Source of the DNA: a bacterium
GTDB lineage: Bacteria > Desulfobacterota > Desulfocorpusculales > Desulfocorpusculum
Assembly: GCA_037481695.1 (NCBI GenBank)
Contig: JBBFLE010000003.1
Span: 186,001 to 250,000, forward strand
Length of the DNA: 64,000 nt
Direction of reading: 5' to 3'
Part shown: piece after piece, positions 2,775 through 51,501 of the stretch
Layout of the letters: each line of letters starts with the position of its first letter
Numbering within the stretch: position 1 is the stretch's first letter
The notes under the pieces: generated by a model
Seen by the model: only the letters and a program-made list of their open reading frames with translations
Told to the model about the DNA's origin: nothing
Database searches by the model: none
Made by a program: the position numbers and the translations under genes

Positions 2775-3947
2775 ATGTTACCTGTAAGGCCCTTCTTGGT
2801 TCCACCGGTTCTAATCACAGGCTCGGGCTCGTCAGAGAAGACAGGGGAGGAGACCCGCAAGCTAGGCGTCAAGAAGGTTCTCCTGGTCACAGACGGTGTC
2901 ATGACCAAAATGGGGATAGTTGACCCCATAAAGAAAAGTTTGGAGGAGCAGGGGATCCAGGTGGCTCTCTTTGACGAGGTGAACACAGAGCCCACCGTGG
3001 ACTATGTGACCCGGGGTGTGGAGCTCTTCAAGCAAAACGGCTGCGAGGCCCTAGTAGCAGTGGGTGGGGGGAGTCCCATAGACACGGCCAAGGCCATCTC
3101 GGTCATGGCAACCAACCCAGGATCCATAGAACAGTACAAGGGGCTTCACAACATCCCCAACAAGGGCTTTCCCGTGGTAGCCATCCCCACTACCGCAGGA
3201 ACCGGAAGCGAGGTGACCATCTTCACCATCATCACGGACACCAAGACCGACGTTAAGATGCTCATTGGAAGCGTGCATTGCCTTCCCCATGTGGCCATAG
3301 TGGATCCCCTTCTTACCTTGAGCTGCCCCAGGGGCCTTACAGCAGCGGTAGGCATAGACGCCCTCACCCACGCCGTGGAGGCTTATGTTTCCCTCAAGGC
3401 CCAGCCTATGAGCGACATCTTTGCACTTTCAGCCATTGAGCTCATATCAGGGAATCTCAGGCAGGCCTGGGCCAATGGCCAAAATCTGGAGGCCAGGGAA
3501 AAGGTGATGCTGGGCTCTCTCCAGGCCGGAATAGCCTTCAGCAACGCTTCCGTGGCCCTTGTGCACGGCATGTCCCGTCCCATAGGAGCCTATTTTCACG
3601 TACCCCACGGGGCCTCCAATGCAGCCCTCCTGGGAGTGGTCACGGAATTCAGCCTGATTGGGAACCCCCAGAGATACGCCCGCATAGCTGCGGCCATGGG
3701 CGAGAACGTGGAGGGCTTGAGTCCCATGGAGGCGGCTCAGGTGGCTGCAGAGGCCATAGAAAACCTCATCTGCGACATCCAGATACCCTCTCTCAAAGAA
3801 CTAGGAGTGGACAAGAAAAAGCTGGAGGAATTGGCCCCGGCTATGGCAGATGCGGCCATAGCCAGCGGAAGCCCGGGGAACAACCCCAGGCAGGCCACAA
3901 AGGAGGAAATAATAGAGCTATACAAGATCGCTTACGAAAGAGAGTGA
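2775..3947 (+). CDS. Iron-containing (type III) alcohol dehydrogenase
   Basis: This is an NAD(P)-dependent alcohol dehydrogenase of the iron-activated group III family, 390 residues, full length for the family. The dinucleotide-binding motif VGGGSPIDTAKAI is at residues 96-108. The metal ligands of the family are all present: Asp195 and His199 in GIDALTHAVEAY, His264 in VHGMSRPIGAY, and His278 in HVPHG. The start is ATG behind AGGAGG. It lies between a TRAP transporter and a CoA-acylating semialdehyde dehydrogenase. It could oxidise a hydroxy-acid or alcohol to the aldehyde that the next enzyme consumes, for example 3-hydroxypropionate or 3-hydroxyisobutyrate type substrates. The substrate is inference; members range from butanol to 4-hydroxybutyrate dehydrogenases. 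Confidence 0.92.
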   Translation: MLPVRPFLVPPVLITGSGSSEKTGEETRKLGVKKVLLVTDGVMTKMGIVDPIKKSLEEQGIQVALFDEVNTEPTVDYVTRGVELFKQNGCEALVAVGGGSPIDTAKAISVMATNPGSIEQYKGLHNIPNKGFPVVAIPTTAGTGSEVTIFTIITDTKTDVKMLIGSVHCLPHVAIVDPLLTLSCPRGLTAAVGIDALTHAVEAYVSLKAQPMSDIFALSAIELISGNLRQAWANGQNLEAREKVMLGSLQAGIAFSNASVALVHGMSRPIGAYFHVPHGASNAALLGVVTEFSLIGNPQRYARIAAAMGENVEGLSPMEAAQVAAEAIENLICDIQIPSLKELGVDKKKLEELAPAMADAAIASGSPGNNPRQATKEEIIELYKIAYERE

Positions 3948-4044
3948 AGCGCACTGTGGATCGAGAGCAGCGAGTGACATCCTGGAAAACTGGCTCAAAG
4001 GCAAAAGCATCAAGGTGCCCATAACCGACCCGGGAGGAAGCGAA

Positions 4045-5535
4045 ATGGCAGTTCTGGAAGAACCCATCAAAGAGGTGCTGGAGCTCAAGAACTATGTCAA
4101 CGGAGAATGGGTGGAGTCCAAGGCCCAAGAGAGGTGGGACGTCATCAACCCGGCCACACAGAAGAAACTAGCCACGGTGCCCATGTCCACAGAGGAAGAG
4201 GTAAAGGGAGCCATCCAGGCGGCTCAGGAGGCCTTTCCCGAGTGGAGGCGCACCCCTCCTTTGGCCAGGGTAAGGTGTCTTTTCAGACTCAAAGAGATGA
4301 TGGAAAAGAACTTCGAGACCTTAAGCCGTGTGCAGACCATGGAGCACGGCAAAACCATAGACGAGTCCAGGGGCGAGACCCGTCGGGGCATAGAGATGGT
4401 GGAAGTGGCAACTGGAATCCCCAGTCTGATGCAGGGTTACAATCTGGAAGACATAGCTTCTGGCATAGACGAGTACGTCATATACCAGCCCCTCGGAGTG
4501 TTCACCCATATAGCTCCTTTTAACTTTCCGTTCATGGTGCCTTTGTGGTACTCCCCTTTTGCCCTGGCCACAGGAAACACCTTCGTGGTCAAGCCCTCCC
4601 CCAGGGATCCCATAAGCCAGGTGAAACTGGCCGAAATGTTCGAGGAGGCAGGAATCCCTCCTGGAGTGTACAACGTGGTGCACGGAGGAGCAGAAGCTGC
4701 AAAAATCCTCATGGAACATCCAGCCGTAAAAGGGGTGACCTTTGTGGGCACCACTTCCATAGGAAAGATCGTGTACAAGACAGCGGGTGAGCACGGCAAG
4801 CGCGCCATCGCCCAGCTCAGCGCCAAGAACTTCATGGTGGTAATGCCCGATGCAGATGTCAACGCCACAGTGGCTGCCCTACTCACATCCTTTTTCGGTA
4901 ACACGGGGCAGCGCTGCCTTTCGGGAGCAAACCTTGTCATGGTGGGAGACGACGAGAAGTTCAACAAGAGTTTTCTCGAGACCTTCTTTGATGCCACAAG
5001 CAAGATCAAGGTGGGCTATGGCCTTGACGAGGCAGTCCAGATGGGACCAATGCAGTCCCTGGATGGAAAACAGCGGGTGCTCAAGTATATTGAAATAGGG
5101 ATCAAGGAGGGCGCTAAACTGGTCCTTGACGGCCGCAAGGTGGACATCTTGGGGGCATACCCGGATACATGTTTCATAGGGCCCACCATCTTCGAAAATG
5201 TGGAGCCCACCATGACCATAGCCCGGGAAGAAATATTTGGACCAGTTGCCTCTGTGCTCAGGGCCAAGGACTTGGACACGGTCATAAACTGGATCAATGC
5301 AAGCAACTACGGAAACGCCGCAGCCATATTCACCAACAACGGCAAGGCAGCCCGCGAATTCCAGTATAGGGTGGAATGCGGAAACATAGGTATAAACATA
5401 GGGATCGTGGCTCCCATGGCCTTCTTCCCCTTCAGCGGCATGAAGGATTCCTTCTATGGTGTGCTCCACGGCCAGGGGAAGGACGCCATTCGCTTTTTCA
5501 CCGAGAGCAAAGTGGTTGTACAGCGTTGGTTTTAA
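4045..5535 (+). CDS. mmsA: CoA-acylating methylmalonate-semialdehyde dehydrogenase
   Basis: This is an aldehyde-dehydrogenase-fold enzyme of the MmsA/IolA type, 496 residues. That family oxidatively decarboxylates (methyl)malonate semialdehyde to acetyl-CoA or propionyl-CoA with NAD+ and CoA. The catalytic cysteine is Cys291 in GNTGQRCLSGANLV. The segment QLSAKNF near residues 257-263 lacks the general-base Glu of hydrolytic aldehyde dehydrogenases, as in CoA-acylating members. I chose the ATG at 4045, preceded by GGGAGGAAGCG, over an in-frame GTG at 4015 without a good ribosome-binding site. Together with the upstream alcohol dehydrogenase it could take a 3-hydroxyacid to acyl-CoA. A 3-hydroxyisobutyrate-dehydrogenase-type gene also lies at 60.5-61.4 kb. 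Confidence 0.9.
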   Translation: MAVLEEPIKEVLELKNYVNGEWVESKAQERWDVINPATQKKLATVPMSTEEEVKGAIQAAQEAFPEWRRTPPLARVRCLFRLKEMMEKNFETLSRVQTMEHGKTIDESRGETRRGIEMVEVATGIPSLMQGYNLEDIASGIDEYVIYQPLGVFTHIAPFNFPFMVPLWYSPFALATGNTFVVKPSPRDPISQVKLAEMFEEAGIPPGVYNVVHGGAEAAKILMEHPAVKGVTFVGTTSIGKIVYKTAGEHGKRAIAQLSAKNFMVVMPDADVNATVAALLTSFFGNTGQRCLSGANLVMVGDDEKFNKSFLETFFDATSKIKVGYGLDEAVQMGPMQSLDGKQRVLKYIEIGIKEGAKLVLDGRKVDILGAYPDTCFIGPTIFENVEPTMTIAREEIFGPVASVLRAKDLDTVINWINASNYGNAAAIFTNNGKAAREFQYRVECGNIGINIGIVAPMAFFPFSGMKDSFYGVLHGQGKDAIRFFTESKVVVQRWF

Positions 5536-30191: not shown

Positions 30192-30217
30192 GGGCACTCT
30201 CCTCTATAAAGAAAGCC

Positions 30218-30248
30218 AAAGGGCCGTGGCTTGACCCCACGGCCCTTT
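30218..30248 (-). terminator. trp attenuator terminator hairpin
   Basis: On the - strand the arms AAAGGGCCGTGG and CCACGGCCCTTT form a perfect 12-bp stem with a 7-base loop. GGCTTTCTTTAT follows. It lies between the leader peptide gene and trpE. The left arm can alternatively pair with CCCACGGCC of the preceding hairpin. Confidence 0.8.
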
Positions 30249-30268
30249 GCTGTGTACCAAAAATCTCA

Positions 30269-30303
30269 AGGCCGTGGGAGCCATCTGGGGCTGCCCACGG
30301 CCT
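30269..30303 (-). promoter_or_regulatory. trp attenuator upstream hairpin / antiterminator strand
   Basis: On the - strand AGGCCGTGGG (30303-30294) pairs with CCCACGGCCT (30278-30269). The second arm is also complementary over nine bases to the left arm of the terminator (GGCCGTGGG). So two exclusive folds exist, as in attenuators of amino-acid operons. Confidence 0.75.
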
Positions 30304-30326
30304 GAGTCTCCTTAAACTGGTGGAAC

Positions 30327-30395
30327 CTAGAGGCTGCGGACAAACCCCTGCCTTAAGCTCCACCACCAATTTTGCCTTGCCAAAAGACCTTTCAT
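30327..30395 (-). CDS. trpL: trp operon leader peptide with three tandem Trp codons
   Basis: This is a 22-residue peptide beginning MKGLLARQNWWW. The three TGG codons are consecutive at 30368-30360. The start is ATG with GGCAGGAA upstream, and the stop is TAG. Its position, 136 bp before trpE and followed by two alternative hairpins, identifies it as a translation-controlled attenuator. Trp codons can also base-pair with TCCACCA (30324-30318) just past the stop, so ribosome position would influence the fold. No other role is expected for the peptide. Confidence 0.88.
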   Translation of the reverse strand: MKGLLARQNWWWSLRQGFVRSL

Positions 30396-30419
30396 TTCCT
30401 GCCCCTTAGAATGGAAAAG

Positions 30420-30449
30420 AATGTACTGAATTTGATCCATTTTTGTCAA
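30420..30449 (-). promoter_or_regulatory. Promoter of the trp operon, overlapping the tyrA stop
   Basis: On the - strand TTGACA (30449-30444), an 18-base spacer and TACATT (30425-30420, four of six) lie just before trpL. The -35 hexamer contains the tyrA stop codon. The trp genes can therefore be transcribed separately as well as by read-through from the aro operon. Confidence 0.65.
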
Positions 30450-31219
30450 GCCCTTTTTTCTGGCCACCCGGAAAGCAGGTTCAAGAGCCCTTGTGCATCG
30501 CGTTTTCGCACGGGTTCTTCCAGCATGGCCAGGGCCTCTTGGTAGCGCTCCAGGATCTCACTGGCATGGGGGTTTCTGATCACGATTCCTGCATAGAGCC
30601 CGGGGTTTTCCCTGAACACCTTTCGGATCATGCGAACTTTTTCTTGGAAAATGGGTGTAGACAAACCAAGCAGTTCCTTGGGGTTGGCACCCAGATGCAT
30701 CATGGCTAAACCCATGCTCATGGTATTGAGATGAGTGAGAACCTGCACCACAGCCATGGCCCGGTCGTGCTCTTCTGGGCTCATCTCGATCACCCGGGCC
30801 CCTTGAGCAACGAGCAGGTCCCTTATCCAGGAGCACCAAAGCTCTCCCCTGCCTTTGCAAAGGACCACATTTTTGCCCTTCAGATTTCTCGCTCTAGGGC
30901 CAAACAAGGGATGGAGCCCCACCACCTCAGATGGACTCCAGCAGAGCATCTGTGCCATAGGCTCTGCTTTCAGGGAGCTCAGATCCATAAGCGCCGCACC
31001 AGGAGCCAAAATGGGACCCACCCATCTAATGACATCCAGTGTCACCCCCAGCGGAACGCTCACAATCACTACCTGGCATCTAGGTATCACTGCCTTGATC
31101 TCATCAGGCCCACCTCTCCCCCACACATGCACCAGATGCCCGCTCCTTTTGAGAAAGGCCGCAAACCACCGGCCCATTCCCCTTGTGCCTCCTATGACCC
31201 CTATGTGCGGTGCTGTCAT
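30446..31219 (-). CDS. tyrA: Prephenate dehydrogenase
   Basis: This 257-residue NAD(P)-dependent enzyme takes prephenate to 4-hydroxyphenylpyruvate for tyrosine. The dinucleotide-binding loop is IGVIGGTRGMGRWF at the N terminus. GLHPLFGPRA and the helical C-terminal half match the family. There is no chorismate mutase domain; that activity lies in PheA. The ATG overlaps the aroC stop by ATGA. An open frame reaching 50 codons further upstream lies inside aroC and is not used. It is the last gene before the internal trp promoter. Confidence 0.93.
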   Translation of the reverse strand: MTAPHIGVIGGTRGMGRWFAAFLKRSGHLVHVWGRGGPDEIKAVIPRCQVVIVSVPLGVTLDVIRWVGPILAPGAALMDLSSLKAEPMAQMLCWSPSEVVGLHPLFGPRARNLKGKNVVLCKGRGELWCSWIRDLLVAQGARVIEMSPEEHDRAMAVVQVLTHLNTMSMGLAMMHLGANPKELLGLSTPIFQEKVRMIRKVFRENPGLYAGIVIRNPHASEILERYQEALAMLEEPVRKRDAQGLLNLLSGWPEKRA

Positions 31220-38876: not shown

Positions 38877-38913
38877 AAGCCACGGGGGAGCTCATCCGGC
38901 CCACCCGTGGCTT
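38877..38913 (-). promoter_or_regulatory. aro attenuator upstream hairpin / antiterminator strand
   Basis: On the - strand AAGCCACGGG (38913-38904) pairs with CCCGTGGCTT (38886-38877). The second strand, read as CCCCCGTGGC (38888-38879), can form ten pairs with GCCGTGGGGG of the terminator (38865-38856). A stretch in the leader gene, CTGCCCGT, could pair with the first strand, giving a chain of mutually exclusive folds. Confidence 0.75.
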
Positions 38914-38932
38914 TGATCCCTTCTTCTTATCC

Positions 38933-39022
38933 CTACTCTAAGGTCTCAACCTCCAAGCCGACGGGCAGACCGGGGCCAAACCAGTAATAAAAGTAAAAGC
39001 CCCAAAAATACCCTTTGCCCAT
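38933..39022 (-). CDS. Aromatic-residue-rich leader peptide of the aro operon
   Basis: This is a 29-residue peptide whose residues 5-15 read YFWGFYFYYWF: four Phe, four Tyr and two Trp within eleven residues. The start is ATG behind AAAGGAG, the stop is TAG. It lies 127 bp before aroF, between a consensus-like promoter and an attenuator. The control codons therefore sense all three aromatic amino acids, fitting an operon that makes all their common precursors. This is the aro counterpart of trpL. Confidence 0.9.
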   Translation of the reverse strand: MGKGYFWGFYFYYWFGPGLPVGLEVETLE

Positions 39023-39051
39023 AATCGGCTCCTTTCCCAAACTGTTTTGGG

Positions 39052-49496: not shown

Positions 49497-49522
49497 TTCC
49501 ATACGCTATAAGGCCATCCCAG

Positions 49523-49548
49523 GGGCGGCCAAAAGGCCGCCCTTTTTT
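49523..49548 (+). terminator. Rho-independent terminator of the OmpA-like gene
   Basis: GGGCGGCC (49523-49530), an AAAA loop, GGCCGCCC (49535-49542) and six T follow the stop codon by 26 bp. Confidence 0.9.
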
Positions 49549-49638: not shown

Positions 49639-49667
49639 TTGACACCAGGGGGACAATTATGTATTCA
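49639..49667 (+). promoter_or_regulatory. Candidate promoter of the leader-peptide/GNAT unit
   Basis: TTGACA at 49639-49644, a 17-base spacer and a weak TATTCA at 49662-49667. It lies 58 bp before the leader peptide start and after the preceding terminator. Confidence 0.45.
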
Positions 49668-49724
49668 TATACCAGGGCTTTGATGGATAGCAGAGGAAGC
49701 AGTGGGCTTTCCAGGAGTGAACAT

Positions 49725-49793
49725 ATGATACAGAGCCGAATATATTGCTTTTACTTTATTTTTGAGGAGGGGTCTGCCCTTCGCTCCGGGTAA
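49725..49793 (+). CDS. Phe/Tyr-rich leader peptide upstream of the GNAT-fusion gene
   Basis: This is a 22-residue peptide with residues 6-13 reading IYCFYFIF (three Phe, two Tyr). The start is ATG with CCAGGAG eight bases upstream, the stop is TAA. It is followed within 14 bp by a pair of mutually exclusive hairpins ending in a T-run. Together with the aro and trp leaders of this window it fits an attenuator that senses charged tRNA-Phe/Tyr. It has not been tied to a known gene family by me. Confidence 0.7.
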   Translation: MIQSRIYCFYFIFEEGSALRSG

Positions 49794-49806
49794 GAATCGC
49801 TCCGGA

Positions 49807-49838
49807 TGCCATGGGTGGACAAGGGGCTGCCCATGGCA
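49807..49838 (+). promoter_or_regulatory. Attenuator upstream hairpin / antiterminator strand (GNAT unit)
   Basis: TGCCATGGGT (49807-49816) pairs with GCCCATGGCA (49829-49838), nine Watson-Crick pairs plus one G-U. The second arm can instead pair over nine bases with GTCATGGGC (49853-49861) in the terminator. Confidence 0.65.
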
Positions 49839-49846
49839 GATGAGCT

Positions 49847-49880
49847 AAAAGGGTCATGGGCCAAGCCCATGGCCCTTTTT
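49847..49880 (+). terminator. Attenuator terminator hairpin (GNAT unit)
   Basis: AAAAGGGTCATGGGC (49847-49861) and GCCCATGGCCCTTTT (49865-49879) form a 15-bp stem with one G-U pair and a three-base loop, running into TTTTTGATTT. It stands 53 bp before the GNAT-fusion start codon. Confidence 0.8.
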
Positions 49881-49932
49881 GATTTGGGGGCCGGCACATG
49901 GAAGGTTGCGGATCAACATTTGGGGGAACATC

Positions 49933-51501
49933 ATGATCTTTGAGGTGAAGCATATTCAGGAGAGGATGATTCAGGCAGGCTTGGGGGTGAAAGACGCCAT
50001 GGCCTTGCTCCACATGACCCTTGGAGATCAGGAGGAGCTCACCGGGCCATTGCCCGAAGGCATTTTCCAGGGGCTTCATTCCCTCATGGATAAGACCGTG
50101 CGTGGAGCAACCATAGAGAGATTCAGACCTTCGGCAGAGGGCTCCACCTTTCACGTCTTTGAAATCCAGGCCCCCCAAGGGCAGCCCTTGGGTTATCTGA
50201 ACATGATGTATCTCAGGAAGCCTTTGCCCTGTTATTACCTGGTGTATGTAGAGGTCTTGACACCTTTTAGACGTCAGGGCTTGGGAAGCCGGATCTTGGA
50301 AGCCTACAGGCTGTTTCTGGAAAAAAAGGGTTGCCTGGGTCTCTTGGACAACATCATTCCTCCAGGGGATCCTACCTTCCACCTTTACACCCGACTGGGA
50401 TACAGGCCGGTGGAGGAGATAATCGGGATGCAGGCCATGCTCAAGGACAACCACTACATGGTATGGATCCCTTCCTCCCTGGGGGATAAAGAGGTGCGAG
50501 AGGGGCTCCTCAAGCTGCTTTTCAACCTTCAGCGCAAGAGGGCCGTGATCGATATGAAGGACAACGAATCAATGGTGGAGCGCACCATTGAGGAATTCCG
50601 AAGCGTTTACAGGGCGCTTACCTCTATGTTCCAGGCAGAGCTGCAACAGGGAACTTCCAGTGCCCTGATGAGATTCATGTTCACCAAGTTCACCACCAAG
50701 CTCCTGGGGTTCAAGAGGCGCATATCCAAGCTGCTTGGATATACGGGCGGGGAATCCCTGGAGCAGATAAGAATCCAGGAGGCCGTAGGAGAACTCTTGG
50801 CACAACCCTGGTCCCTGTGGGGCCCCCAGGAAAGCCGGGTGGAAATCCTGGATCCATCGGCGCCGGATCTGCCAGAATCATTAAGAAAAGATCCTACGGG
50901 ATTCATAGAAGCCTTACCGGTTTATAGAAGGCCTTATCTGGGTGGAGAATCCCATGGCATCCAGGCATCTTCCAGCCAGAGCCTCAGGATAAGGGATCTG
51001 ATGGCTCTGGGTTTTGATCCTACCCGTTTGAGGGAATGGGACAATGGCCAGGCCCGATTTGTTTTCGAACGTTCCTGGCCCAGGTTTGAGGCTCATATAA
51101 GACAGACAGCCCAATGGCTCAGGCGCATAGGCATTGAAGCCTGTTCCATGCGTTTTCGCGGGGCCCAGCTCCAGGTGAATCCACCTTTGGCCCTGCTTGC
51201 GCACAAGGGAAACCTGTATGTGCTCAGGAGAAAACTGGAAGGCATCCACTTGGAGGAGGCCCTGGACCAACTAGGCAGTGATGAAAACCTCAGGCAATTG
51301 AACAAAATGGCTGGTATAGACAGGGCTATTTTGGAAGTGGTCCGTTGGGCAAAGGAGTGGTTGGGTGGGATGGCCCCCCCCCACATCAAGGCAGAGGTGG
51401 AGGACCTTACATTTTTTGTCCCATGGGATCTGGAGCGCAACTTTCCCAAGGTGAGCGTGGAAGTTAATGGGGTATCCGTTGACAAGCTGTGGCTGGCATG
51501 A
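49933..51501 (+). CDS. GNAT-type acetyltransferase fused to a large uncharacterised domain
   Basis: This is a 522-residue protein. Residues 50-200 look like a GNAT N-acetyltransferase, with the acetyl-CoA-binding signature EVLTPFRRQGLGSRILEAYR at about 107-126 (R-x-x-G-x-G). FHLYTRLGYRPVEEI follows near residue 153. The remaining ~320 residues match no domain I recognise. That part contains a basic helical section (FTKFTTKLLGFKRRISKLLG) and an alpha/beta C terminus. No signal peptide is seen. The gene is preceded by a Phe/Tyr-rich leader peptide and attenuator, which hints at a role in aromatic amino-acid or tRNA-linked metabolism (inference). The start is ATG; its ribosome-binding site is weak (GGGGGAACATC). 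Confidence 0.75.
   Translation: MIFEVKHIQERMIQAGLGVKDAMALLHMTLGDQEELTGPLPEGIFQGLHSLMDKTVRGATIERFRPSAEGSTFHVFEIQAPQGQPLGYLNMMYLRKPLPCYYLVYVEVLTPFRRQGLGSRILEAYRLFLEKKGCLGLLDNIIPPGDPTFHLYTRLGYRPVEEIIGMQAMLKDNHYMVWIPSSLGDKEVREGLLKLLFNLQRKRAVIDMKDNESMVERTIEEFRSVYRALTSMFQAELQQGTSSALMRFMFTKFTTKLLGFKRRISKLLGYTGGESLEQIRIQEAVGELLAQPWSLWGPQESRVEILDPSAPDLPESLRKDPTGFIEALPVYRRPYLGGESHGIQASSSQSLRIRDLMALGFDPTRLREWDNGQARFVFERSWPRFEAHIRQTAQWLRRIGIEACSMRFRGAQLQVNPPLALLAHKGNLYVLRRKLEGIHLEEALDQLGSDENLRQLNKMAGIDRAILEVVRWAKEWLGGMAPPHIKAEVEDLTFFVPWDLERNFPKVSVEVNGVSVDKLWLA

Follow-up and report, generated by a model that had tools for sequence, protein, structure and literature searches.

A predicted Phe/Tyr-responsive transcription attenuator in front of a GNAT-fusion gene in Desulfobacterota

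In a Desulfocorpusculum genome (GenBank assembly GCA_037481695.1, contig JBBFLE010000003.1; the stretch of 64,000 nucleotides that was analysed is referred to as the window), a 522-codon gene for a GNAT-fusion protein is preceded by a short open reading frame (ORF) rich in Phe and Tyr codons and by an intrinsic terminator. Very likely, this leader is a ribosome-mediated transcription attenuator that senses the charging of Phe-tRNA and Tyr-tRNA and controls the GNAT-fusion protein as part of a Phe/Tyr-supply regulon. Computational analysis established the leader ORF, the terminator and the pairing segments, showed that these are conserved and covary, and placed the gene in pheA operons of relatives; from these features we infer that the leader ORF is translated, that ribosome stalling is the signal, and in which direction the switch operates. 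The leader is filed here with the ribosome-mediated attenuators, as one with an unusual segment layout and a target outside the known biosynthetic genes. A description of the leader or of its gene was not found in the open-access literature.

Architecture of the leader in the window

All elements of the leader lie on the forward strand. A putative -35 element, TTGACA (49639-49644), is followed at a spacing of 17 by a weak -10 element, TATTCA (49662-49667); TTGACA-like elements occur at a comparable position 5' of the trp and aro leaders of the window and of several orthologue leaders, but the assignment stays tentative because the window sequence does not reach the cut-off of the promoter scan. 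A Shine-Dalgarno sequence, AGGAG (49713-49717), is located 7 nt upstream of the ATG of the leader ORF (49725-49793), which encodes the peptide MIQSRIYCFYFIFEEGSALRSG and contains the presumed control codons Y49743, F49749, Y49752, F49755 and F49761. The intrinsic terminator, AAAAGGGTCATGGGC-CAA-GCCCATGGCCCTTTT(T), spans 49847-49880, has 15 base pairs in the model and includes a U-run, and its end lies 53 nt upstream of the regulated gene (49933-51501). The complete leader folds better than its own shuffled versions (z = -2.75).

Five segments, A to E, can be distinguished in this RNA. Segment A (GTCTGCCC, 49772-49779) is situated inside the leader ORF, just 3' of the Phe/Tyr codons, and pairs with segment B (GCCATGGGTGGAC, 49808-49820), which can alternatively pair with segment C (CTGCCCATGGC, 49827-49837) to form a hairpin between the leader ORF and the terminator (49807-49838). 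Segment C in turn may pair either with B or, as an antiterminator, with segment D (49847-49861), the 5' arm of the terminator, whose 3' arm with the U-run is segment E (49865-49880). The same A-B-C-D-E layout is found in two further leaders of the window, both on the minus strand: the trp leader (MKGLLARQNWWWSLRQGFVRSL, near 30394-30326 in the region 30200-30460) with the control codons WWW, and the aro leader (MGKGYFWGFYFYYWFGPGLPVGLEVETLE, near 39021-38932 in the region 38904-39050) with the run YFWGFYFYYWF. The presence of a third leader peptide with the hairpin layout of these two, which had been pointed out in the preliminary description, is borne out by the ORF, the terminator and the segment layout. 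The three leaders also share the TTGACA element and the modelled polarity; they differ in their control codons, which are F/Y in the GNAT leader as opposed to F/Y/W (aro) and WWW (trp), and in that the aro and trp leaders target the DAHP synthase and anthranilate synthase operons. A search of the same genome with two CATGGG/CGTGGG hairpin patterns returned the GNAT and trp leaders and two matches that look unrelated, so it added no further members of the class. In Rfam, no family reached the gathering threshold in the window, and the leader itself gave chance-level matches only.

Conservation of the leader among homologues

A search of 59 relatives yielded a match to the GNAT-fusion protein in seven genomes, one of them marginal, and a protein-alignment scan of the genomes of 84,980 species identified 58 homologues, all in Desulfobacterota as judged from records named Desulfobacterota, Deltaproteobacteria or related MAG names. 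Within the phylum the distribution is patchy (22 of 297 genomes), and strain NaphS2 is among the carriers. An ORF with an F/Y run lies 5' of the gene in at least 44 of the 58 homologous loci, i.e., in about three quarters, and in the aligned orthologue leaders it is followed by a terminator; examples of the encoded peptides are MTVTHTFNFFYFYFTGRSGMP, MTRRFYFYFFTGGSARHGPPS and MRNFSIKYYYFYFNGRSGPRLR. Besides these loci, the leader is present in the window and in two further genomes (G096 and G223), and the upstream regions of three loci (L026, L049 and L056) are interrupted by contig ends. When leaders were called automatically, as short ORFs within 450 nt upstream that have at least five F/Y/W residues in eight codons, 42 of the 58 homologues qualified compared with 17 of 338 control genes of the same loci (about 5%; p = 1e-29, a value that overstates the independence of the loci, since these are related). 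A doubtful F-rich short ORF in L043 is included in this automated count and excluded from the leaders assigned by eye. These figures bear out the expectation that orthologues would have an aromatic short ORF and a terminator in front. Among the three strongest control matches is the F/Y/W leader of an aroA'-aroB'-pheA-GNAT operon (L012).

The seven-codon cores of 46 leaders contain F or Y at 253 of 322 residues and W at five, and this composition indicates the Phe/Tyr branch, as opposed to Trp or the common pathway. No F/Y leader was found in about seven to ten homologues with sufficient upstream sequence (e.g., L013, L042, L045, L066, L019, L023 and L041). In L004, L019 and L023, a conserved hairpin with a U-run (AAGGCCTTGGGC...CAAGGCCTCTTTTTTT) directly precedes the GNAT gene in place of an F/Y leader, which was noted as different or lost control.

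Pairing segments and covariation

Two main layouts occur among the homologous leaders. The window type, comprising the leaders of the window, L009, L010, L015, L017, L018, L058, G096, G223 and G278, has segment A in the ORF 3' of the F/Y run and paired with B, and B:C, C:D and the D:E terminator as alternatives. When the trp and aro leaders of the window were included in the set, the A:B duplexes formed by each leader's own segments had a mean energy of -23.6 kcal/mol, compared with -18.8 kcal/mol for permuted partners, and none of 20,000 permutations was as low; as the segments were picked by eye, this result lends support without having the standing of a formal test. In the Desulfobacterales type, represented by 19 aligned leaders, a segment at the stop codon, AGYGUGUG, pairs with the loop and 3' arm of the terminator in 152 of 152 cells of the alignment, with one-sided changes only. 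A CACACA segment 5' of the F/Y run competes for AGYGUGUG and exhibits two-sided, compensatory changes at three pairs, and a small hairpin directly 3' of the run covaries likewise. According to the models, both layouts predict read-through when a ribosome stalls at the F/Y codons. The preliminary proposal of a Phe/Tyr attenuator, made from the one copy, is corroborated by this conservation of leader ORF and terminator and by the covarying structure.

Modelled response to ribosome position

The position of segment A inside the ORF, behind the control codons, implies that A remains free when the ribosome stalls and is covered once the ribosome has reached the stop codon. In the folding models of the GNAT leaders of L009, L010 and L015 and of the trp and aro leaders, a ribosome on most control codons favours A:B together with C:D before E has been made, and a ribosome at the stop codon leads to B:C and then D:E, with the full-length equilibrium being mixed for L015. 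Before the terminator has been made, the default of the untranslated RNA is A:B plus C:D in the L009, L010 and L015 models. For the window leader, a ribosome at Phe49755 or Phe49761 makes A:B plus C:D the state of lowest energy, and with one at Tyr49752 this state is within 0.3 kcal/mol of the minimum; a ribosome at the stop codon leaves only B:C and the terminator. When the transcript is trimmed by five bases at its 3' end, B:C wins in all states. A ribosome-dependent, mutually exclusive antiterminator was obtained for the orthologues, whereas in the window copy it depends on the 3' end chosen. The A:B helix of the window copy is the weakest of the set, and its two pre-terminator states are nearly balanced (within 0.3 kcal/mol); because of this near balance and the 3'-end dependence, it ranks as the weakest among these switches, and the argument relies on the copies in relatives.

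Most leaders have the same polarity in the models, with stalling at Phe/Tyr codons giving the antiterminator and arrival at the stop codon the terminator. The switch could operate in the following manner: With ample Phe and Tyr, the ribosome would pass segment A and reach the stop codon, so that B pairs with C and the D:E terminator forms upstream of the gene. A shortage of either amino acid would make the ribosome stall on the codon run 5' of A; A would then capture B, C would pair with D, the terminator would be pre-empted and the gene transcribed. The GNAT-fusion gene is very probably switched on during Phe/Tyr shortage.

In the pheA (leader peptide pheL) and trp attenuators of Escherichia coli, a leader peptide with many residues of the regulating amino acid or acids precedes mutually exclusive hairpins and an intrinsic terminator upstream of the gene, and starvation causes read-through. 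The leaders described here are alike in peptide, hairpins and terminator and, according to the models, in the response to starvation; they differ in that the window type uses five segments, of which the deciding one, A, is located inside the ORF 3' of the control codons, and in that its target is no known biosynthetic gene.

Gene neighbourhood and aromatic metabolism

The gene had been described as far from any known aromatic gene, which is correct for its immediate neighbours in the window; yet the aro-trp cluster ends only about 11 kb away on the opposite strand, and copies in relatives lie inside aro/pheA operons. In L012 (1834-6575), an aroA'-like aldolase gene (DeoC/LacD), aroB' (DHQ synthase II), pheA and the GNAT gene follow one another behind an F/Y/W leader (MNKRWKMDQLRAFNFGSGFNFYWFYYALVYPLRLADR), and in L014 the order is aroE, aroA, an ORF, aroC, pheA, GNAT, DUF362, NMO and trpE. 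The GNAT gene is located directly 3' of pheA in both genomes and has no leader of its own there; genome searches found PDT adjacent to the GNAT gene in two genomes, G191 and G214, which are the same records as L012 and L014. These pheA-GNAT operons provide independent support for a link to aromatic amino-acid supply, in agreement with the preliminary description. For the aroA'-aroB'-pheA-aroF-tyrA-trp supraoperon of Desulfovibrio vulgaris, a member of the same phylum, a putative attenuator has been listed earlier (PMC1173090, Table 7); L012 resembles it in its aroA'-aroB'-pheA order with an F/Y/W leader in front, but no GNAT gene is listed there, and the leader of the window family controls the GNAT gene alone.

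Across the loci, no constant upstream or downstream partner was found apart from pheA, DUF362 and local synteny. A DUF362 gene adjoins the GNAT gene in three loci (L011:6576, L014:6622 and L010:1124-2134). In L011, a remnant resembling the PheA C-terminus (HALFIKVLGSYPRSSSWD) is situated just upstream of position 4965, directly 5' of the GNAT gene, and a second PheA C-terminus is found at 2-346, which would fit an insertion of genes between pheA and GNAT accompanied by a duplication.

The window genome possesses the enzymes from DAHP synthase through chorismate synthase as well as CM-prephenate dehydratase and prephenate dehydrogenase, and a 182-aa ORF occupies the position of shikimate kinase. 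Among 21 genomes with the GNAT gene, PDT was detected in 15 and PDH in 14. PDT, PDH and CM were not found in the genome searches of G096 and G223, nor PDT and PDH in G257, nor chorismate synthase in G223 and G257, although assembly gaps are possible in all three. Despite the lack of detectable PDT and PDH, these three high-completeness genomes have both the GNAT gene and an aromatic leader, which argues that the protein is independent of the PDT/PDH route; the organisms could be aromatic auxotrophs or users of another route.

The protein

The N-terminal part of the 522-aa protein contains a GNAT domain (residues 72-157, or about 70-160; PF00583, E = 9e-7, 29.6 bits against a cut-off of 20.7), in which the CoA motif R-x-x-G-x-G is intact and R113, G116 and G118 are invariant. 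It resembles GNAT acetyltransferases such as YpeA, RimI and the polyamine acetyltransferases in the score of this domain and in the motif, but the similarity is distant, and the fusion to a conserved domain of about 340 residues that has no match, in some copies with a metallo-beta-lactamase (MBL) domain in addition, sets it apart. This C-terminal domain (approximately 181-522, 342 residues) is modelled confidently (pLDDT 86) and gave no significant match in searches by PDB fold, PDB sequence or Pfam profile. A likeness to kinase lobes was disregarded (TM-scores of about 0.14-0.23, nothing below E = 0.001). Sequence and fold searches of the PDB with the full-length protein retrieved generic GNATs only, the best sequence match having E = 0.05.

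Several copies are fused to, or share an operon with, an MBL-fold domain that partly matches ODP (L029, L034, L037, L040, L041, L046, L058 and L008), and several of the MBL-GNAT units carry their own F/Y leader 5' of the MBL part (e.g., MKHGKFFFFFVFTRAHPCP and MMRFEFTGFFYFWFRRIPVPVG). In L009, a Sir2-family deacetylase gene (3867-4664) immediately precedes the leader of the GNAT-fusion gene.

Discussion

The regulatory reading is strongly supported by the comparative sequence evidence. The near balance of the window copy, the homologues without an F/Y leader and the carriers without detectable PDT and PDH count against the overall interpretation. That the leader is a chance combination of a short ORF with the terminator of the upstream gene has a negligible probability: ORFs with at least five aromatic residues in eight codons are indeed found upstream of about 5% of the control genes, but the arrangement is conserved and covaries across the phylum, and the upstream OmpA-family gene has a separate terminator at 49521-49544. 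It is highly improbable, too, that the leader works through specific nascent-peptide arrest, like TnaC or ErmBL, and not as a codon-counting sensor; many of the peptides have a similar C-terminal motif, GRSGMP or GSxR, yet F and Y follow one another in no fixed order and in runs of freely varying length, and the conserved C-terminal part coincides with the covarying RNA segments.

The remaining alternatives concern the protein. The preliminary suggestion that it may be an aromatic-metabolism enzyme filling a missing step draws on the aro/pheA operon context in L012 and L014 and on the Phe/Tyr leader; it is unlikely, since the window genome already has the pathway from DAHP synthase to prephenate dehydratase and prephenate dehydrogenase, the GNAT fold corresponds to none of its steps, and some carriers lack much of it. 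There is a small chance that the attenuator is real and the protein has tRNA or the translation machinery as its target, for instance through acetylation or modification of the tRNAs that read UUY and UAY codons, in which case the leader would report the activity of its product via slow decoding. Attenuators respond to undermodified as well as to uncharged tRNA, some GNAT enzymes act on tRNA, and the gene persists in carriers without CM or PDT. Against this, no tRNA-binding domain was recognised in Pfam or in PDB sequence and fold searches; tRNAs with such modifications also read the U-starting codons of Leu, Ser, Cys and Trp, and the leader cores contain few Leu, Cys and Trp residues; and the pheA-operon position fits metabolism better. 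Most likely, the protein supports Phe/Tyr homeostasis as a putative CoA-dependent acyltransferase that acts on a metabolite, an enzyme or a tRNA of this branch.

The balance tips slightly towards a broader view, in which an undescribed Desulfobacterota family, consisting of a GNAT domain and a new C-terminal domain and sometimes fused to MBL, is a dedicated component of Phe/Tyr homeostasis with a function new to any organism, induced by Phe/Tyr starvation via a leader whose RNA layout was rebuilt several times while its amino-acid specificity stayed fixed. The RNA layouts of the attenuator differ strongly between lineages, and the sensed amino acids are constant. A protein family without an assigned role would in this way be tied to a specific signal, Phe/Tyr shortage, across many sulfate-reducing and syntrophic bacteria, which makes its function directly testable.
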